58,808 bases of DNA, taken from assembly GCA_949293165.1 (NCBI GenBank), contig CASFCW010000004.1:1-58808 (forward strand), read 5' to 3'. A model generated the notes under the pieces. The model did no database searches. It was not told the DNA's origin and saw only the letters and a program-made list of their open reading frames with translations. The first letter of the stretch is position 1; each line of letters begins with the position of its first letter. The stretch comes from an uncultured bacterium. GTDB lineage: Bacteria > Bacillota > Clostridia > Oscillospirales > Oscillospiraceae. This document shows, piece by piece, positions 33,526-54,314 of the stretch. The position numbers and the translations under genes were made by a program.

Positions 33526-33554
33526 TTTACTTTTCCCGGAAAATCTGCTACAAT
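33526..33554 (+). promoter_or_regulatory. Promoter of radA
   Basis: TTTACT (33526-33531), 17 nt, TACAAT (33549-33554) with a TGC extension. The ribosome site GGGGAGG follows at 33576-33582. Confidence 0.6.
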
Positions 33555-33591
33555 GAGGGCCATCGACAAAAGCAGGGGAGGATTCTGTCCT

Positions 33592-34962
33592 GTGAAGGCA
33601 AAAACACTGTTTTATTGTACGGAATGCGGGGGAGAGACCCCCAAATGGCAGGGGAGGTGCCCCGCCTGCGGAGCTTGGAACACCATTGTGGAGCGCCCCG
33701 CGGAACGTGTGGTGAAAAAAAGCCCGTCGGCCAGCCGCGGAAGCGCCCTGTCCGTGCCGGTCAAGCTGCCCAAGGCCATGGCCCAGGTGGAGACTACCGA
33801 TGAGCTGCGCTTCTCCACCGGCATGGGGGAGCTGGACCGGGTGCTGGGCGGCGGCGCCGTGCGCGGTTCTTTGGTGCTGGTGGGCGGCGCCCCCGGCATC
33901 GGCAAATCCACCCTGATGCTCCAAATCTGCGACCAGCTGTGCCGGTTTGCCACGGTACTGTATGTCTCCGGCGAGGAGTCGGAGCGGCAGATCAAGCTGC
34001 GGGCAGAACGGCTGAAGGTGAAAGGGGAGGGGCTGCACCTGCTGTCCGAAACCAACCTGGACAACATGCTGGACGCGGTGCACTCCCTGAATCCCGATGT
34101 ACTTATCGTGGATTCCATCCAAACCCTATATCATGGGGACGTGGCCTCCGCCCCGGGCAGCATCAGCCAGGTGAAGGAATGCACCATGGCGCTGATGCAG
34201 CTGGCAAAAGGGGAGGGTCTGACCGTTTTTGTCATCGGCCATGTAAATAAGGAAGGGTCCATCGCCGGCCCCAAGGTTTTGGAGCATATGGTCGACTGCG
34301 TTCTCTACTTTGAGGGGGAGCGGCAGATGGCTTACCGCATCCTCCGGGCAGCCAAGAACCGGTTTGGCGCCACCAATGAGATCGGCGTGTTCGAGATGGG
34401 AGACGACGGCCTGGCGGAGGTGCCCAACCCGTCGGAGGCGCTGCTGGCCGGACGGCCTGAGGGCGCGCCCGGTACCTGCGTCACCTGTGTGATGGAGGGA
34501 ATCCGGCCGGTGCTGGCGGAGATTCAGGCCCTGGTGGTGCCCAGCAGCCTGGGCAATCCCAGGCGGGTAAGCAACGGCTTTGATTATAACCGGGCCATGC
34601 TGCTGCTGGCGGTGCTGGAAAAGCGGGGCGGGCTGATGCTGGGTGGCTGCGACGCCTACCTGAACGTCATCGGCGGCCTGTCCCTGGACGAGCCGGCGGC
34701 TGATCTGGCTACGGTGATGGCCCTGGCATCCAGCTTCCGGGATAAGCCGGTGCCCGCCGACCTGGCAGCCATCGGAGAGGTGGGCCTGACGGGGGAGCTG
34801 CGGGCGGTCAACGCCCTGGGCCAGCGTCTGTCGGAGGTCCGCCGCCTGGGCTTTACCAAGTGTTTGATCCCCAAGCGGGTTCAGGGCAAGCTCACCGAAC
34901 CGCAAGGCCTGGAGCTGATCCGGGTGTCCAATATCCGGGAGGCACTGGCGGCCCTGTTGTAA
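33592..34962 (+). CDS. radA: DNA repair protein RadA
   Basis: RecA-like ATPase that promotes branch migration of recombination intermediates. It has 456 residues from a GTG at 33592, placed 9 nt after GGGGAGG; an ATG at 33553 lies on the promoter -10 box. The N-terminal zinc finger uses C9, C12, C23 and C26. Walker A is GAPGIGKST (99-107). The RadA-specific KNRFG motif is present in AAKNRFGATNEIG. The C-terminal third is the Lon-like domain (GGLSLDEPAADLA). The next gene on the strand is a Xer recombinase, so recombination functions cluster here. Confidence 0.96.
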   Translation: MKAKTLFYCTECGGETPKWQGRCPACGAWNTIVERPAERVVKKSPSASRGSALSVPVKLPKAMAQVETTDELRFSTGMGELDRVLGGGAVRGSLVLVGGAPGIGKSTLMLQICDQLCRFATVLYVSGEESERQIKLRAERLKVKGEGLHLLSETNLDNMLDAVHSLNPDVLIVDSIQTLYHGDVASAPGSISQVKECTMALMQLAKGEGLTVFVIGHVNKEGSIAGPKVLEHMVDCVLYFEGERQMAYRILRAAKNRFGATNEIGVFEMGDDGLAEVPNPSEALLAGRPEGAPGTCVTCVMEGIRPVLAEIQALVVPSSLGNPRRVSNGFDYNRAMLLLAVLEKRGGLMLGGCDAYLNVIGGLSLDEPAADLATVMALASSFRDKPVPADLAAIGEVGLTGELRAVNALGQRLSEVRRLGFTKCLIPKRVQGKLTEPQGLELIRVSNIREALAALL

Positions 34963-35242
34963 CGACTGGAAGGTCCGTTTTTGATTCCGGCACTCAGAGT
35001 CAAAATCCGTGTTCCATCAGGACACGGACAGAATACGAGCGCCCGGCCGGGGAAGGGCCCGGCCAAGCAGGAGAGAAAGGAGATCCGCGCCCCGGAGGGC
35101 CCCTGTCTGGCTCATGGATGCAAGTCAACAAAATAAAAATTTTGTTGACTTGGAGGGAGGCAAAAACCGCCTGTACCCCGGTTTTGCCCCTGTCCGGGCC
35201 TTCCGCGGCCCCAACCGGCCTCCGGCGCCAAGCCTGAATATC
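34963..35242. other. 280-bp intergenic region rich in inverted repeats
   Basis: Between radA and the recombinase there is no convincing short gene. It holds a 7-bp hairpin (TCCGTGT at 35006-35012 with ACACGGA at 35022-35028), a GGCCGGG/CCCGGCC hairpin near 35044-35064, and the AT-rich dif-like palindrome at 35123-35150. The open recombinase frame extends back to 35009 but has no ribosome site and no family similarity before 35243. Confidence 0.5.
35123..35150. other. Candidate dif site (Xer recombination site)
   Basis: Two perfectly inverted 11-bp arms, AGTCAACAAAA (35123-35133) and TTTTGTTGACT (35140-35150), flank a 6-bp centre TAAAAA (35134-35139). The 11-6-11 layout and AT-rich centre are those of bacterial dif sites. 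The right arm agrees at 8 of 11 positions with the B. subtilis XerD half-site TTATGTAAACT; the left arm agrees poorly with the XerC half-site. The palindrome extends one more base on each side. There is no U-run after it, so it is not a terminator. It lies 92 bp before a Xer gene, as dif lies beside xerS in streptococci. An operator is the main alternative. Confidence 0.55.
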
Positions 35243-36268
35243 ATGTCTGATTATCGCACTGACGCACCGCCCATACTCCGGGACTTCCTGGTTTATCACC
35301 AGGCCATTCAGGGACATTCCCGGCGCACGGTGGACGAATATTACCTGGATCTGCGGAATTTTTTCCGCTATCTTAAGCAGGAAAAGCACCGCGTCCCAGC
35401 CAACACGCCTTTGGAGCAAATCCCCATTGACGACGTGGATTTGGAGCTTATCGCCTCTGTAACCCTCAGCGATGTCTATTCCTACATGAACTACCTGTCC
35501 CGGGACCGGGCCGTCCATCCCAACAGCCCCGACGGCCATTACGGCCTGGCGCCTGCCGCCCGGGCCCGCAAGGTGGCCGCCATCCGATCCTTTTATAAGT
35601 ACCTCACCAACAAGGCCAAGGTTTTACCGGAAAATCCAATGCAGGACCTGGACTCGCCCAGGCTGAAAAAGACCTTGCCAAGGTATCTGGATCTGGAAGA
35701 AAGCGAAACCCTTTTGGACGCTGTGGACGGTTCCAATCAGGCCCGGGATTACTGCATTTTGACCCTGTTTCTCAATTGCGGGCTGCGTATTTCCGAGCTG
35801 GTGGGCTTAAATGTAACGGATGTTCGAGGAAATCAGCTTCGGGTACTGGGCAAGGGCAACAAGGAGCGGATGCTGTTTCTCAACGACGCCTGCCTGGACG
35901 CCCTGGAGGACTGGATGACCGAGCGGAATGCCTTGACCTTGGTGGATGAAAACGCCCTGTTCGTCACGCCCAAATACCGCAAACGGATTACCCGGGCGGC
36001 GGTACACAAGCTGGTGAAAAAGCACCTGTCCGCCGCCGGGCTGGACAGCAGCAAGTACTCCTCCCATAAGCTGCGGCATACAGCCGCCACCTTGATGCTG
36101 CAAAACGGCGTGGACGTCCGCACGCTGCAGGAGGTGCTGGGCCACGACCACCTGAATACCACCCAGATTTATACCCATGTAGACAACGAGGATCTCCGCA
36201 TTGCCGCCAAAGCCAACCCGCTGGGACGGAGAAAACGGCAGAAAAATGAAAAAAAGGAAGAGAAATGA
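35243..36268 (+). CDS. Xer-type tyrosine recombinase
   Basis: Site-specific recombinase of 341 residues. The SAM-like core-binding domain covers about 8-125 and the catalytic domain about 145-325. Active-site residues are all present: R182 (GLRISEL), H275 and R278 (HKLRHT), H301 (LGHDH) and the nucleophile Y310 (TTQIYTHV). The tail is Lys/Glu-rich. The length and lack of phage neighbours favour a chromosomal XerC-like enzyme over an integrase. I place the start at ATG 35243, where family similarity begins, although the ribosome site is weak. A separate XerD is encoded at 51055-51960, so the pair may form XerCD. Confidence 0.9.
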   Translation: MSDYRTDAPPILRDFLVYHQAIQGHSRRTVDEYYLDLRNFFRYLKQEKHRVPANTPLEQIPIDDVDLELIASVTLSDVYSYMNYLSRDRAVHPNSPDGHYGLAPAARARKVAAIRSFYKYLTNKAKVLPENPMQDLDSPRLKKTLPRYLDLEESETLLDAVDGSNQARDYCILTLFLNCGLRISELVGLNVTDVRGNQLRVLGKGNKERMLFLNDACLDALEDWMTERNALTLVDENALFVTPKYRKRITRAAVHKLVKKHLSAAGLDSSKYSSHKLRHTAATLMLQNGVDVRTLQEVLGHDHLNTTQIYTHVDNEDLRIAAKANPLGRRKRQKNEKKEEK

Positions 36269-51054: not shown

Positions 51055-51960
51055 TTACGCCCTGGGGTGGGCCTTTAAGTAAACGTCCTTCAGCTTCTGA
51101 TTGACCAGGCGGGAATAAATCTGGGTGGAGGAGATGTCCGCATGGCCCAGCATCTCCTGGATGGCCCGCAGATCGGCGCCGTTTTCCAGCAGATGGGCCG
51201 CAAAGGAATGGCGCAGCGTGTGAGGGGTGATGTCCTTCTCAATCCCCGCCTTCTCCTGATAATGCTTAATCAGCTTCCAGAAGCCCTGGCGGCTCATCCG
51301 GTCCCCATTCATGTTGACAAACAGGGCCCGTTCCTCCTGTGAATCCACCAGCTGGGGGCGCACCCGATGGACATACTCCCCCAGGGCCCGCACCGCCGCG
51401 GGATACAGGGGGATGGACCGCTCCCGCCCCTTGCTGGCGCAGTGCAGCATGGACGCCGACAGGTTCAGATCCTCCACATCCAGCGCAATCAGCTCGCTGA
51501 CCCGGATGCCGGTGGCGTACAAAAGCTCCAGCATGGCCCGATCCCGGCAGCCCTTGGCATCGGTGCCCTGGGGCTGCTCCAGAAACAGCTCCACCTCCCG
51601 GCCGGTGAGCACCTGGGGCAGCCTGCGCTCCACCTTTACCGGGGTGATCCCCTTGGCCGGGTTGGACTCCACCACCCCAAGCTGAATCATGGCGTTATAG
51701 AAGGATTTGATGGACGCCACGCAGCGGGTTACCGTAGCGGCCGACTTTCCCCGGCCAGACAGACCGGAGATGTACTCCTCCACATCCTCCGGCTCCACGT
51801 GGGCCAGCTCAATCCCCCGGTCCTTCATGGCGCGGGAAAACTGCGTCATATCCCGCAGATAGGAGCTGACGGTGTTGGGGGAAGCCTTCTTCTCCTCCGT
51901 CAGGTATTCCTCATATAGATCCAGCCACTCCGTCACACCCACAACTCCCTTTTCCTTCAT
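51055..51960 (-). CDS. xerD: Tyrosine recombinase XerD
   Basis: Resolves chromosome dimers at dif, normally with XerC and FtsK. It has 301 residues from the ATG at 51960. Active-site residues: R153 (GIRVSEL), H247 and R250 (HTLRHS), H273 (LGHAD) and nucleophile Y282 (STQIYSRL). The N-terminal core-binding domain is EWLDLYEEYLTEEKKASPNT. A GTG at 51936 with GGGAG 8 nt upstream is an alternative start. It follows spoIIM by 2 nt; the spoIIM-xerD proximity is also known in Bacillus. Its site is likely the one proposed at 35123-35150. Confidence 0.94.
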   Translation of the reverse strand: MKEKGVVGVTEWLDLYEEYLTEEKKASPNTVSSYLRDMTQFSRAMKDRGIELAHVEPEDVEEYISGLSGRGKSAATVTRCVASIKSFYNAMIQLGVVESNPAKGITPVKVERRLPQVLTGREVELFLEQPQGTDAKGCRDRAMLELLYATGIRVSELIALDVEDLNLSASMLHCASKGRERSIPLYPAAVRALGEYVHRVRPQLVDSQEERALFVNMNGDRMSRQGFWKLIKHYQEKAGIEKDITPHTLRHSFAAHLLENGADLRAIQEMLGHADISSTQIYSRLVNQKLKDVYLKAHPRA

Positions 51961-51962
51961 CC

Positions 51963-52586
51963 TCACAACACAAACCCGGCAGCCGCCCCAATGAGGGCGG
52001 GCAGCGCCCAATACTCCAGCAGCACACACACCAGCAGCACCGCCCCACACATCAGCAATCCTGCCATAGCCCGCTTTCCCGGGCCGCTGCGCCGTCCGCG
52101 GCCGGGATCGGCCGACCGGGCCAGCCCTTCACAGGCGCGCTCCAAGCTGCCGGCGCCAGCCAGAAACAGGGCCGGCGCCCACAGGCAGGCCGGAACCCCG
52201 AACAGGAACCAGGCCGGCGCCAGCCCGGCCGGGCCAAACACCCGGCAGAACCCGCCTACCGAAAAGGCCAGGAGAAAGCCGCGCACCGCAAACAGCGCAG
52301 GGATGCCCACCGCCCCCAGGGCGGTCAGGCTGAGCAGCCCAATCCCAATCAGAAACCGGTACTGCTCCCAAAGCATGGACCACAGGCTGGGCGCAAGCGC
52401 CCCGTCCCGGGCCAGCTGGAGATACTGAATCAGGTAATCTGACAGCGCCTGAGCCGAGGCCTGGGGCATCAGCCCCGCCATACAGCCGCCCAGTATGCCG
52501 CCCAACAAAAAGGCCGCCCCCAGCACACACACTGTCCCCAGGGGAAAGCCGAATATGTCCCATTTCATCCCACGGCGCTCGGTCAT
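51963..52586 (-). CDS. spoIIM: Stage II sporulation protein M
   Basis: Membrane component of the SpoIIDMP peptidoglycan-remodelling machine that drives forespore engulfment. It has 207 residues and about five helices (18-40, 75-100, 105-125, 128-150, 180-205). Family features are FLLGGILGGCMAG near the start and ALGAVGIPALFAVRGFLLAF in the middle. The N-terminus is short and cytosolic. The ATG at 52586 follows GAGGTG. The homologue is shorter and more Arg/Gly-rich than the Bacillus protein. Together with xerD it forms one unit. Confidence 0.85.
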   Translation of the reverse strand: MTERRGMKWDIFGFPLGTVCVLGAAFLLGGILGGCMAGLMPQASAQALSDYLIQYLQLARDGALAPSLWSMLWEQYRFLIGIGLLSLTALGAVGIPALFAVRGFLLAFSVGGFCRVFGPAGLAPAWFLFGVPACLWAPALFLAGAGSLERACEGLARSADPGRGRRSGPGKRAMAGLLMCGAVLLVCVLLEYWALPALIGAAAGFVL

Positions 52587-52678
52587 CGCTGTCACCTCAC
52601 TGGTTCAGCCTATGACCGGAAGCCGGGAAATAGACGCCGGGGGCGGGAGTTGTATAGTCCCCGGGCCTGTCCATTCTT

Positions 52679-52707: not shown

Positions 52708-52806
52708 GGGGTTTTGTCGTCTTTTTCGATATTTTGTTTTACATCTCCAATTTTATGTAAATTGCGTTATGTCAATCCAGGAAACAGACGAAATGATTAG
52801 CAAAGA

Positions 52807-52895: not shown

Positions 52896-54314
52896 TCAAT
52901 CCTCACAGCCGGAGCATTGATTGCACCCTGTATTATCGCGAGCGGAGGCCTCCTCCCCGCCCATACCGGCGGCAATGGCCTTCAGGGCGATGGCGCACTC
53001 CAGGCGCTTGCGCTCCATTTCGCAGGCCACCTCGTTGGACTGGCTGATGTCGCCGTTGACCAGCAGATTGGAAGCGGAGCAGCCGCCGCTGCAATAGAAC
53101 CGCGCCCAACACTCCCGGCAAGCGGGACGGGTATAGATATTCTGGTTGGCAAACTGGCCGGAGATCTCCATGTTGAAGGAGCCGTCGAACACACTGCCCA
53201 GGCGGTATTCCTCCTTCCCCACAAACTGGTGGCAGGGGTAAATGTCGCCGTCGGGGGTGATAGCCACATACTCACAACCGGCTCCGCAGCCCCGCAGGCG
53301 CTTGATGACGCAGGGGCCCTGGGCCAGATCCACGTTGAAGTGGAAGAAGTTGACGTCCTTCCGGCCCATCAGCTCCCGGGCCAGTTTTTCATACTCGGCC
53401 TCCACCTGGGGCAGATCCTCCTTTTTGATGGCAAAGGGGTCGTCCAGAGGGCCGCTGGCGGGCTCCACGGACACATGGCGGAAACCCAGGGAGGCCAGGT
53501 GGGTTACGTCCTGGGCAAAGTCCAGGTTCTCCCGGGTAAAGGTGCCCCGGACATAGTATTCCTTGCTGCCCCGCTGGGCCACCAGCTTCTGGAACTTGGG
53601 GACGATAACGTCATAGCTCCCCTGCCCGCCTGGGGTGGGCCGCATGTTGTCGTTGACCTGGGGCCGCCCATCCAGGGAGAGCACCACGTTGGACATCTCC
53701 CGATTGATGTAGTCGATGGTATCGTCATTGAGGAGCATGCCGTTGGTTGTAATGGTAAAGCGGAAAACCTTGTCATGCTCTTTTTCCAGGGAACGGGCAT
53801 AGGCCACCGTCTCCTTTACGGTGTCCAGCGCCATCAGAGGCTCCCCGCCGAAGAAGTCCACCTCAATATTCCGGCGCTTCCCGGACTTGGCTACCACCCA
53901 GTCGATGGCACGCTTGGCGGTCTCCCCATCCATTACCTTCCGGCCGGTGCCGAAGTCGCCGGTGGAGGCAAAGCAGTATTTGCACCGCAGGTTGCAGTCG
54001 TGGGACACGTGGAGGCACAGGGCCTTGACCACCGCCTGCTTGGGCAGCGCCATGGCGGCCTCAGGGTCCACGTAGCTGTCGTCGGAGAACAGCAGTCCCT
54101 GCTCCTGCAGGCCCCGCAGCTCCGCCCAGGCTTCTTCCACATCCTGGGCGGGGTACTGGCTCAGCTGATCCAGCACTTCCCGGGGGCACTGCTCCTCCAT
54201 AGGCTTGTCCAGAAGGGACAGCACGTCGTAGCTCAGCTTGTCCAGCACATGGACGGCGCCGCTGTTTACATCCGCCACCAGGCACTGCCCCAGGGCGGTA
54301 AAGGTATGTATCAT
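52896..54314 (-). CDS. scfB: Radical SAM maturase of the SCIFF ranthipeptide
   Basis: A radical-SAM/SPASM enzyme that links cysteine sulfur to carbon atoms in the SCIFF peptide (thioether bonds). The 472-residue protein has the SAM-cluster motif CNLRCKYC (in HVSHDCNLRCKYCFASTG), FFGGEPLM, and a Cys-rich SPASM region (CGAGCEYVAI, CHQF, ACRECWARFYCSGGC). The N-terminal about 90 residues resemble a peptide-recognition (RRE) domain. The ATG at 54314 follows AAGGAG. It lies 103 bp after its substrate gene, with a hairpin between. Confidence 0.96.
   Translation of the reverse strand: MIHTFTALGQCLVADVNSGAVHVLDKLSYDVLSLLDKPMEEQCPREVLDQLSQYPAQDVEEAWAELRGLQEQGLLFSDDSYVDPEAAMALPKQAVVKALCLHVSHDCNLRCKYCFASTGDFGTGRKVMDGETAKRAIDWVVAKSGKRRNIEVDFFGGEPLMALDTVKETVAYARSLEKEHDKVFRFTITTNGMLLNDDTIDYINREMSNVVLSLDGRPQVNDNMRPTPGGQGSYDVIVPKFQKLVAQRGSKEYYVRGTFTRENLDFAQDVTHLASLGFRHVSVEPASGPLDDPFAIKKEDLPQVEAEYEKLARELMGRKDVNFFHFNVDLAQGPCVIKRLRGCGAGCEYVAITPDGDIYPCHQFVGKEEYRLGSVFDGSFNMEISGQFANQNIYTRPACRECWARFYCSGGCSASNLLVNGDISQSNEVACEMERKRLECAIALKAIAAGMGGEEASARDNTGCNQCSGCED

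Follow-up and report, generated by a model that had tools for sequence, protein, structure and literature searches.

A 28-bp inverted repeat at positions 35123 to 35150 (+ strand) of the window, that is the complete stretch of 58,808 nucleotides analysed here, is very probably the dif site of this bacterium, and it is probable that the adjacent tyrosine recombinase Xer1 works this site alone on both arms. The assignment draws on the place of the site, its uniqueness, the switch in GC skew, the conservation, symmetry and co-variation of the arms, the asymmetry of the centre, the catalytic residues of Xer1 and the phage-type genes located beside the site in relatives. The general plan of dif sites, comprising 28 bp with two 11-bp arms around a 6-bp AT-rich centre, is present. 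The left arm AGTCAACAAAA (35123 to 35133, + strand) and the perfectly symmetric right arm TTTTGTTGACT (35140 to 35150, + strand) are predicted half-sites of Xer1, and the central region TAAAAA (35134 to 35139, + strand), in which the outer T and A pair and the inner 4 bp are asymmetric, would represent the overlap. The sequence-only reading had described inverted 11-bp arms with a 6-bp AT centre 92 bp before a Xer gene; its coordinates and sequence proved to be exact, with a dyad that is slightly longer, as T35134 pairs with A35139 inside the arms and A35122 with T35151 and C35121 with G35152 outside. Full pairing accordingly yields 14-bp arms (35121 to 35134 and 35139 to 35152) around the unpaired AAAA. 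The reported likeness of the right arm TTTTGTTGACT to the XerD half-site of classical dif, which we take to be TTATGTAAACT, was recovered at 8 of 11 positions. The upstream neighbour at 33553 to 34962 (+ strand) was verified as radA (TIGR00416; 603.7 bits, cut-off 403.05), and both Xer-type recombinases of the window were recovered, at 35243 to 36268 (+ strand) and 51055 to 51963 (- strand). When up to three mismatches were allowed, the site was unique in the window (mean of 0.00 matches in 100 shuffles) and matched a single place in the own genome of 2.19 Mb in 127 contigs, as is characteristic of a dif site with one copy per chromosome and as the earlier reading had proposed to check.

The location at the replication terminus and at a switch in GC skew, which is likewise characteristic of dif and had been anticipated, was found with the exception of G185, a genome of two contigs in which gene and site lie approximately 20% from dnaA. 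In the single-contig congeners G030, G005 and G007 the site is located 50.8%, 55.1% and 48.9% of the way round from dnaA, and in G069, G138 and G167, which belong to three other families, the gene is located at 51.4%, 53.7% and 51.2%; thus, site or gene lies 49 to 55% round from dnaA in six single-contig relatives, of which G069 revealed no site near Xer1. The distance to dnaA is 0.95 Mb for the gene in G209 (both on the same contig of a 2.0-Mb genome) and 1.67 Mb for gene and site in G001 (seven contigs, 4.3-Mb genome), and in G170 and G176 the gene and dnaA are on separate contigs. The least-squares change point of the GC skew in the window was calculated at position 35161, 24 bp from the site centre at 35137. 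The respective distances are 24 bp in G005 and in G030, 35 bp in G001 and 27 bp in G027, so that for the window and four of the six congeners the change point comes to lie within 35 bases of the site. In G007 and G014 it is displaced by 2 kb and 7 kb, respectively. The congener stretches (20 to 92 kb), unlike the window, were picked around the site. The cumulative skew maximum lies 52 bp from the site in G014, 3 kb in G007 and 10 kb in G030.

Among 80 loci of named relatives, including Pseudoflavonifractor, Flavonifractor, Intestinimonas and Lawsonibacter, the skew falls across the site in 42 of the 43 that contain a single recognisable site with flanks of 4 kb. Since radA and xer1 flank the site in the same orientation, the switch is not an effect of gene orientation locally. 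The coarse skew of sampled blocks in G138 changes from +0.027 (1,425 to 1,445 kb) to -0.071 (1,449 to 1,469 kb) and then to +0.015 and -0.085, and the change point over the concatenated blocks is not at the site. The octamers GGGGGAGA (62:5) and GGGGAGAA (42:3) are biased to the leading strand of G005 and presumably resemble guide sequences of FtsK/SpoIIIE. All six octamers examined in the window change strand at the site, as exemplified by TGGGGGAG with 9:0 on the left and 0:7 on the right, and such a flip accompanies any skew switch; the octamers leading in G138 differ from those of G005.

The gene xer1 (35243 to 36268, + strand) encodes a tyrosine recombinase of 341 amino acids according to the family PF00589 and the alignment with XerC and XerD of E. 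coli. The likely start is the ATG at 35243, 92 bp past the site, in a frame that runs across the site without a stop as far back as 35009, the start being set where the relatives begin to match. The residues R182, K204, H275, R278, H301 and Y310, which we take to be the six catalytic ones, are present according to this alignment and to the invariant columns over 30 Xer1 proteins. All 30 proteins match the XerC model (best E value 7.4e-74) as well as the same set of models, and Xer1 of the window scored below the curated cut-offs for XerC (220.9 versus 335.15), XerD (216.9 versus 329.6), XerA (NF040815; 198.5 versus 220) and XerS (153.9 versus 267). Xer1 is closer to the solved structure of XerD (1a0p; 1.4e-36) than to that of XerH (5jjv; 2.3e-21), with phmmer scores of 129.7 bits for XerD and 79.8 bits for 5jjv_A, and no XerH model was among the profile matches. 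A quick tree with 100 proteins, in which the E. coli branches are long and XerS, XerH and XerL are absent, placed the 72 Xer1 sequences in a single clade subtended by a long branch and separate from the XerD proteins and from E. coli XerC and XerD. The XerC model was matched at E<=1e-60 by 51 of 59 genomes of the class Clostridia, none of which exceeded the cut-off, and many genomes of the class carry both a Xer protein of approximately 300 amino acids and one of 320 to 370; Xer1-like proteins may therefore be distributed class-wide.

Within the genus, 51 of 64 genomes, the own one included, match the site at up to three mismatches, and Xer1 is present in 58; the six congeners without Xer1 (65 to 88% complete) yielded no match to the site either. 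In all 51 matching genomes the site is located on the Xer1 contig, 23 to 130 bp upstream of xer1. Variant sites were detected beside Xer1 in six further congeners (G002, G025, G047, G053, G034 and G040), which together with the close matches provides 57 of the 58 Xer1-bearing congeners with a site; the remaining one, G054, showed none in the 2.0 kb examined. Accordingly, the expected conservation beside radA and xer was established for xer, radA having been identified in the window alone. At up to five mismatches the site was found in 63 of the 80 named loci, and of the 17 loci without it, L061 and L072 start within the gene. With a search pattern free of any pairing requirement, the arms are paired at 11 of 11 positions in 44 of the 51 congener sites and in 55 of the 63 named loci, which comprise four different fully paired arm types and share the centre TAAAAA in 57 cases. 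Of the 14 most distant named loci (49 to 55% identity), six contain a perfect 11-6-11 palindrome with other arms near Xer1, for instance ATTATACAAAA-TAAATA-TTTTGTATAAT and ATTTCGCTAAA-TAAAAA-TTTAGCGAAAT, one shows pairing at 9 of 11 positions and seven have no nearby palindrome; L085, one of the loci with no nearby site, contains a G+C-richer palindrome 2.8 kb downstream.

The survey was extended to the order, where 141 of the 148 sampled genomes contained Xer1 (one match per genome, E<=1e-50), and 140 loci besides the window were examined, 136 of them with at least 200 bp of upstream sequence. A palindrome with at least 10 of 11 paired positions, a T....A centre and an AT value of at least 15 occurs within 700 bp upstream in 53 of these 136 genomes, against 0.1 predicted by first-order simulations. 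When the T....A and AT filters were dropped, control searches at spacings of 5 and 7 yielded 11 and 9 genomes, and a control search within the gene yielded 2. More than half of the order genomes examined revealed no such site near Xer1: the families f3, f4, f7, f12, f15, f16 and f18 contain the gene without such a site near it, as do nearly all genomes of f10; the main exceptions are f10, with a site in 1 of 18 genomes, f15 (0 of 17), f16 (0 of 16), f12 (0 of 3) and f4 (0 of 3), and no clear alternative motif conserved near Xer1 emerged in f10, f15 and f16. With a limit of 9 of 11 positions and a wider range, 63 genomes with 29 distinct arm pairs were obtained, at least two of which appear chance-like. 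Because these sites were selected for pairing, the arm pairing of 0.90 to 1.00 arises partly by construction; this selection does not explain the recurrence at the same place with different arms, nor the following two features of the 29 distinct sites. Pairing is at the background level from two bases outside the arms, and within the centre the inner four positions are paired in only 0.07 and 0.21 of the sites, compared with 0.44 and 0.37 expected. In several other families the location, the 11-6-11 layout and the mirror symmetry persist with other arm sequences, and the central 4 bp show less self-complementarity than expected by chance; a single protein thus seems to recognise the two arms, with the overlap defining the direction. 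Symmetric arms combined with an asymmetric centre are expected from the needs of a recombinase site, unlike what an operator or a hairpin would keep.

The retention of a canonical XerD counts against the action of a single enzyme, as a pure single-recombinase system would not need it. This second Xer protein of the window (51055 to 51963, - strand) exceeds the XerD equivalog cut-off (TIGR02225; 341.7 bits, cut-off 329.6) and is encoded 15 kb from Xer1; 59 of the 64 congeners contain a relative (E<=1e-60), which lies 13 to 37 kb from Xer1 in the three single-contig ones. It is therefore conceivable, although unlikely, that the site is worked by a pair, in which Xer1 would bind one arm and XerD, or a different Xer protein, the other, both reading the same half-site. 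The joint presence of the shorter and the longer Xer type in many genomes of the class fits such a pair, as does the resemblance of the arm TTTTGTTGAC to the XerD-linked repeat TTATGTNAAC. A second Xer1-like protein, 34 to 43% identical to Xer1, is furthermore encoded in G034 (C117, 2558 to 3496), G040 (C54, 12672 to 13613) and G043 (C117, 12645 to 13583), and no symmetric site was found beside these genes. The pair is opposed by the concerted change of the two arms in congeners, named loci and families, and by the finding that the arms vary within the genus (GGTCAAC, AGTCAAC, GGTAAAC, GTTCAAC) whereas the XerD-linked repeat stays TTATGTNAA. Moreover, Xer1 and XerD are 32% identical, and G034, a draft of 98% completeness, combines Xer1 and a site with 9 of 11 paired positions with the lack of any XerD at E<=1e-60, although its Xer1-like paralogue could be the partner.

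The XerD-linked element of the window is the tandem direct repeat TTATGTAAATTGCGTTATGTCAA (52753 to 52775, + strand), separated from the XerD gene by a gene at 51963 to 52595 (- strand) that is weakly SpoIIM-like (TIGR02831; 31.1 bits, far below the cut-off of 100.2). The tandem arrangement TTATGTNAA-N5-TTATGTNAA was detected with at most one mismatch in 58 of 64 congeners. Wherever repeat and XerD share a contig, as in 57 genomes, the repeat precedes XerD by 772 to 880 bp; in G061 the two are on separate contigs, and second matches in G006, G039 and G053 were excluded. The repeat is missing in six congeners, namely the five that lack XerD and G040, whose best XerD match is 47% identical. The repeats TTATGTNAAC, with a period of 14 bp, are embedded in a longer AT-rich element (GCAAG...TTTTGTCAATT...) in the window and in the loci L163 to L192, and presumably resemble the XerD half-site of B. 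subtilis dif. They were considered as the true dif and rejected, since they are not inverted and since their distance to the site amounts to approximately 10 to 67 kb in the window and in six congeners. At the B. subtilis terminus, SMC complexes are unloaded by XerD (PMC12322038). The XerD-linked repeat is discussed here as a candidate element for XerD-dependent SMC unloading or for regulation, and it could be a promoter element. Adjoining this element, the gene of a SCIFF peptide maturase (TIGR03974; 664 bits) is located at 52899 to 54311 (- strand). With arms that co-vary and a XerD that is linked to a separate direct-repeat element, the suspicion voiced in the sequence-only reading, namely that full symmetry points to an atypical division of labour between the two Xer proteins, gained support as an inference.

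A function of the palindrome as an operator, at which Xer1 or another regulator would control the transcription of xer1, appears very improbable. The palindromic structure, the position 23 to 130 bp upstream of xer1 in all 51 congeners with a close match and the position of some degenerate copies just upstream of other genes are consistent with it. However, the site is located 3' of xer1 in G176, G206 and G074 and 218 to 955 bp upstream in 11 of the 63 order genomes, a few perhaps by chance, it coincides with the skew switch, and its centre is less symmetric than chance, which makes an operator, listed in the earlier reading among the outcomes that would refute dif, unlikely; autoregulation of xer1 as a by-product of the site is possible. 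The degenerate copies amount to 11 extra places in 10 of 64 congeners. Five of the 11 places were examined as possible ends of integrated elements, and this reading was rejected; their neighbours are a helix-turn-helix gene in G007 and an AraC-like gene in G027, both named from reading the proteins, and the malic-enzyme-like gene of G005 and G043 and the CHC2-primase-like gene of G001 described below. The degenerate copy on contig C90 of G010 is part of a contig of 45,050 bases, and a viral record of likewise 45,050 bases contains the same 28 letters.

That the site is merely an attachment site kept by mobile elements such as filamentous phages, with no chromosomal function, is the least credible explanation, since it would account for the viral contigs with such sites and for the phage-type genes adjoining the site in four of them, but not for the congener site beside Xer1 near the skew switch or for its persistence across families with arms changing together. 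Exact 28-bp patterns with the arms of three families matched 13, 7 and 2 viral contigs, compared with 0 and 0 for two permuted palindromes; a first viral scan with a 24-base pattern had resulted in 0 matches, and a looser pattern, which hit 67 contigs, three of them with a T....A centre, was left out of the evidence. Of the 22 viral loci, some being short fragments, four have Xer1 beside the site; each of these four contains a gene for a rolling-circle Rep protein across the site from Xer1, at a distance of 0.1 to 1.5 kb. The Rep protein belongs to PF02486 in L496, L516 and L524 and is G2P-like in L518, and a Zot-family morphogenesis ATPase is encoded in L516, L518 and L524. Since Rep_trans proteins are found in conjugative elements too, L496 is weak if taken alone; it also contains a second recombinase-like frame. 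A motif search of the available DNA of the remaining 18 viral loci did not reveal a tyrosine recombinase. Groups of viral contigs have a centre in common, namely ACCT, ATGT or CTTG or the complement of one of these, and most of these centres differ from the chromosomal ones. In L518 (1 to 7103), a filamentous-phage-like element of 5.8 kb is located directly beside Xer1 between the intact site and a second, degenerate one, which is accompanied by approximately 90 bp of the same flank; this arrangement would be as expected for an element inserted at dif, with homologous recombination as an alternative origin of the repeated flank.

From the combined data we infer binding and cleavage of the site, the action of a single enzyme and control by FtsK. 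In the proposed dif system of Xer1, two Xer1 molecules would bind the identical half-sites, two sites would synapse as a chromosome dimer stretches across the septum, and Xer1 would cleave the DNA and exchange strands where the arms border the 6-bp centre, whose asymmetry would force the alignment of the sites and thereby the conversion of the dimer into two monomers. A translocase of the FtsK/SpoIIIE type, guided by skewed G-rich oligomers, would probably deliver the sites, and the canonical XerD encoded nearby would not be the partner and would have another role. The identification as chromosome dimer resolution site, originally proposed in the sequence-only reading, thus appears well supported by uniqueness, skew switch and conservation beside xer.

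Classical dif sites have unlike XerC and XerD arms, whereas the two arms are identical here. The classical sites of Firmicutes share with the present one the length of 28 bp, the AT-richness, the position at the shift point of the skew and the single copy per chromosome (PMC3025954). The XerD equivalog is present as described above, and an XerC equivalog was found neither in Xer1 nor in the 59 class genomes when judged by the cut-off. A better dif of the Firmicutes type elsewhere, which would have spoken against the earlier assignment, was sought and rejected, as the patterns gave little or no excess over the reversed control: 87 matches versus 64 in 6 genomes at up to three mismatches, some of the 87 representing the present site, and 123 versus 121 in 38 genomes at up to two mismatches, none of them exact. 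XerS/difSL of streptococci and lactococci is likewise a Firmicutes system with one recombinase and the site beside its gene, and difSL differs by its 31 bp, imperfect repeats and 11-bp centre (PMC5357621), and Xer1 by its low score for XerS. The same source attributes to XerH/difH of Campylobacter and Helicobacter a single recombinase near the site that is longer than XerC and XerD, as is Xer1, and AAAA next to the centre, with arms of 11 and 10 bp that are imperfect repeats instead of perfect ones (PMC5357621). The archaeal XerA/dif system is set apart by the XerA score of Xer1. XerL/dif of Legionellales has in common with the present system a single recombinase, a site near the terminus with long uninterrupted inverted repeats as arms (10 and 12 bp there) and a mobile element with a mimic of the site (PMC9765430). 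The same study locates dif and xerL of L. pneumophila more than 400 kb apart, whereas site and gene are adjacent here, and mentions no identified orthologues of XerC, XerD, XerS or XerH, whereas a canonical XerD is kept here (PMC9765430).

For this abundant group of intestinal bacteria, a description of the dimer resolution site and its enzyme was not found in the open-licence papers searched. We tentatively suggest that, after XerS, XerH, XerA and XerL, the Xer1 module might represent an undescribed class of single-recombinase Xer/dif systems that extends over many families within a large, gut-dwelling order of Clostridia, with recombinase and site co-evolving over many different arms, with XerD freed for its own direct repeat near the terminus, for example as SMC unloader, and with phages exploiting the module. 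As an equally tentative part of this suggestion, the private centres of some phages might allow these to separate their multimers while avoiding recombination with the host chromosome. The system provides a natural series of recombinase and half-site pairs that is useful for studying DNA recognition by Xer proteins and for orthogonal recombination tools. The two Xer proteins of one cell are apparently split onto two sites, which makes it testable whether the SMC unloading by XerD known from B. subtilis is possible without dimer resolution, and the site marks the ends of the replication arms and the place where some filamentous phages probably insert.

Several further occurrences of site-like sequences were recorded. 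In the viral contig L523 (3200 to 4734), a site is located approximately 0.5 kb from an FtsK/SpoIIIE-like gene (PF01580; 3.2e-41), whose product might activate the host recombinase. The contigs L495, L497, L499, L502, L503 and L506 are tailed-phage-like and carry a perfect 28-bp site with no recombinase detected by motif; terminase and portal genes were identified in L497, L499 and L506, the others showing similar frame sizes, and the site possibly serves the resolution of phage multimers. A degenerate copy of the palindrome is kept just upstream of a malic-enzyme-like gene, named from reading the protein, in G005 and G043 (L123, 2036, and L132, 10183). Finally, three different site-like palindromes are arranged in tandem on a 431-kb contig (C2) of G001 (L131, 9767 to 9883), between a gene of unknown family encoding 239 amino acids and a CHC2-primase-like gene, the primase domain of which was confirmed by family search.
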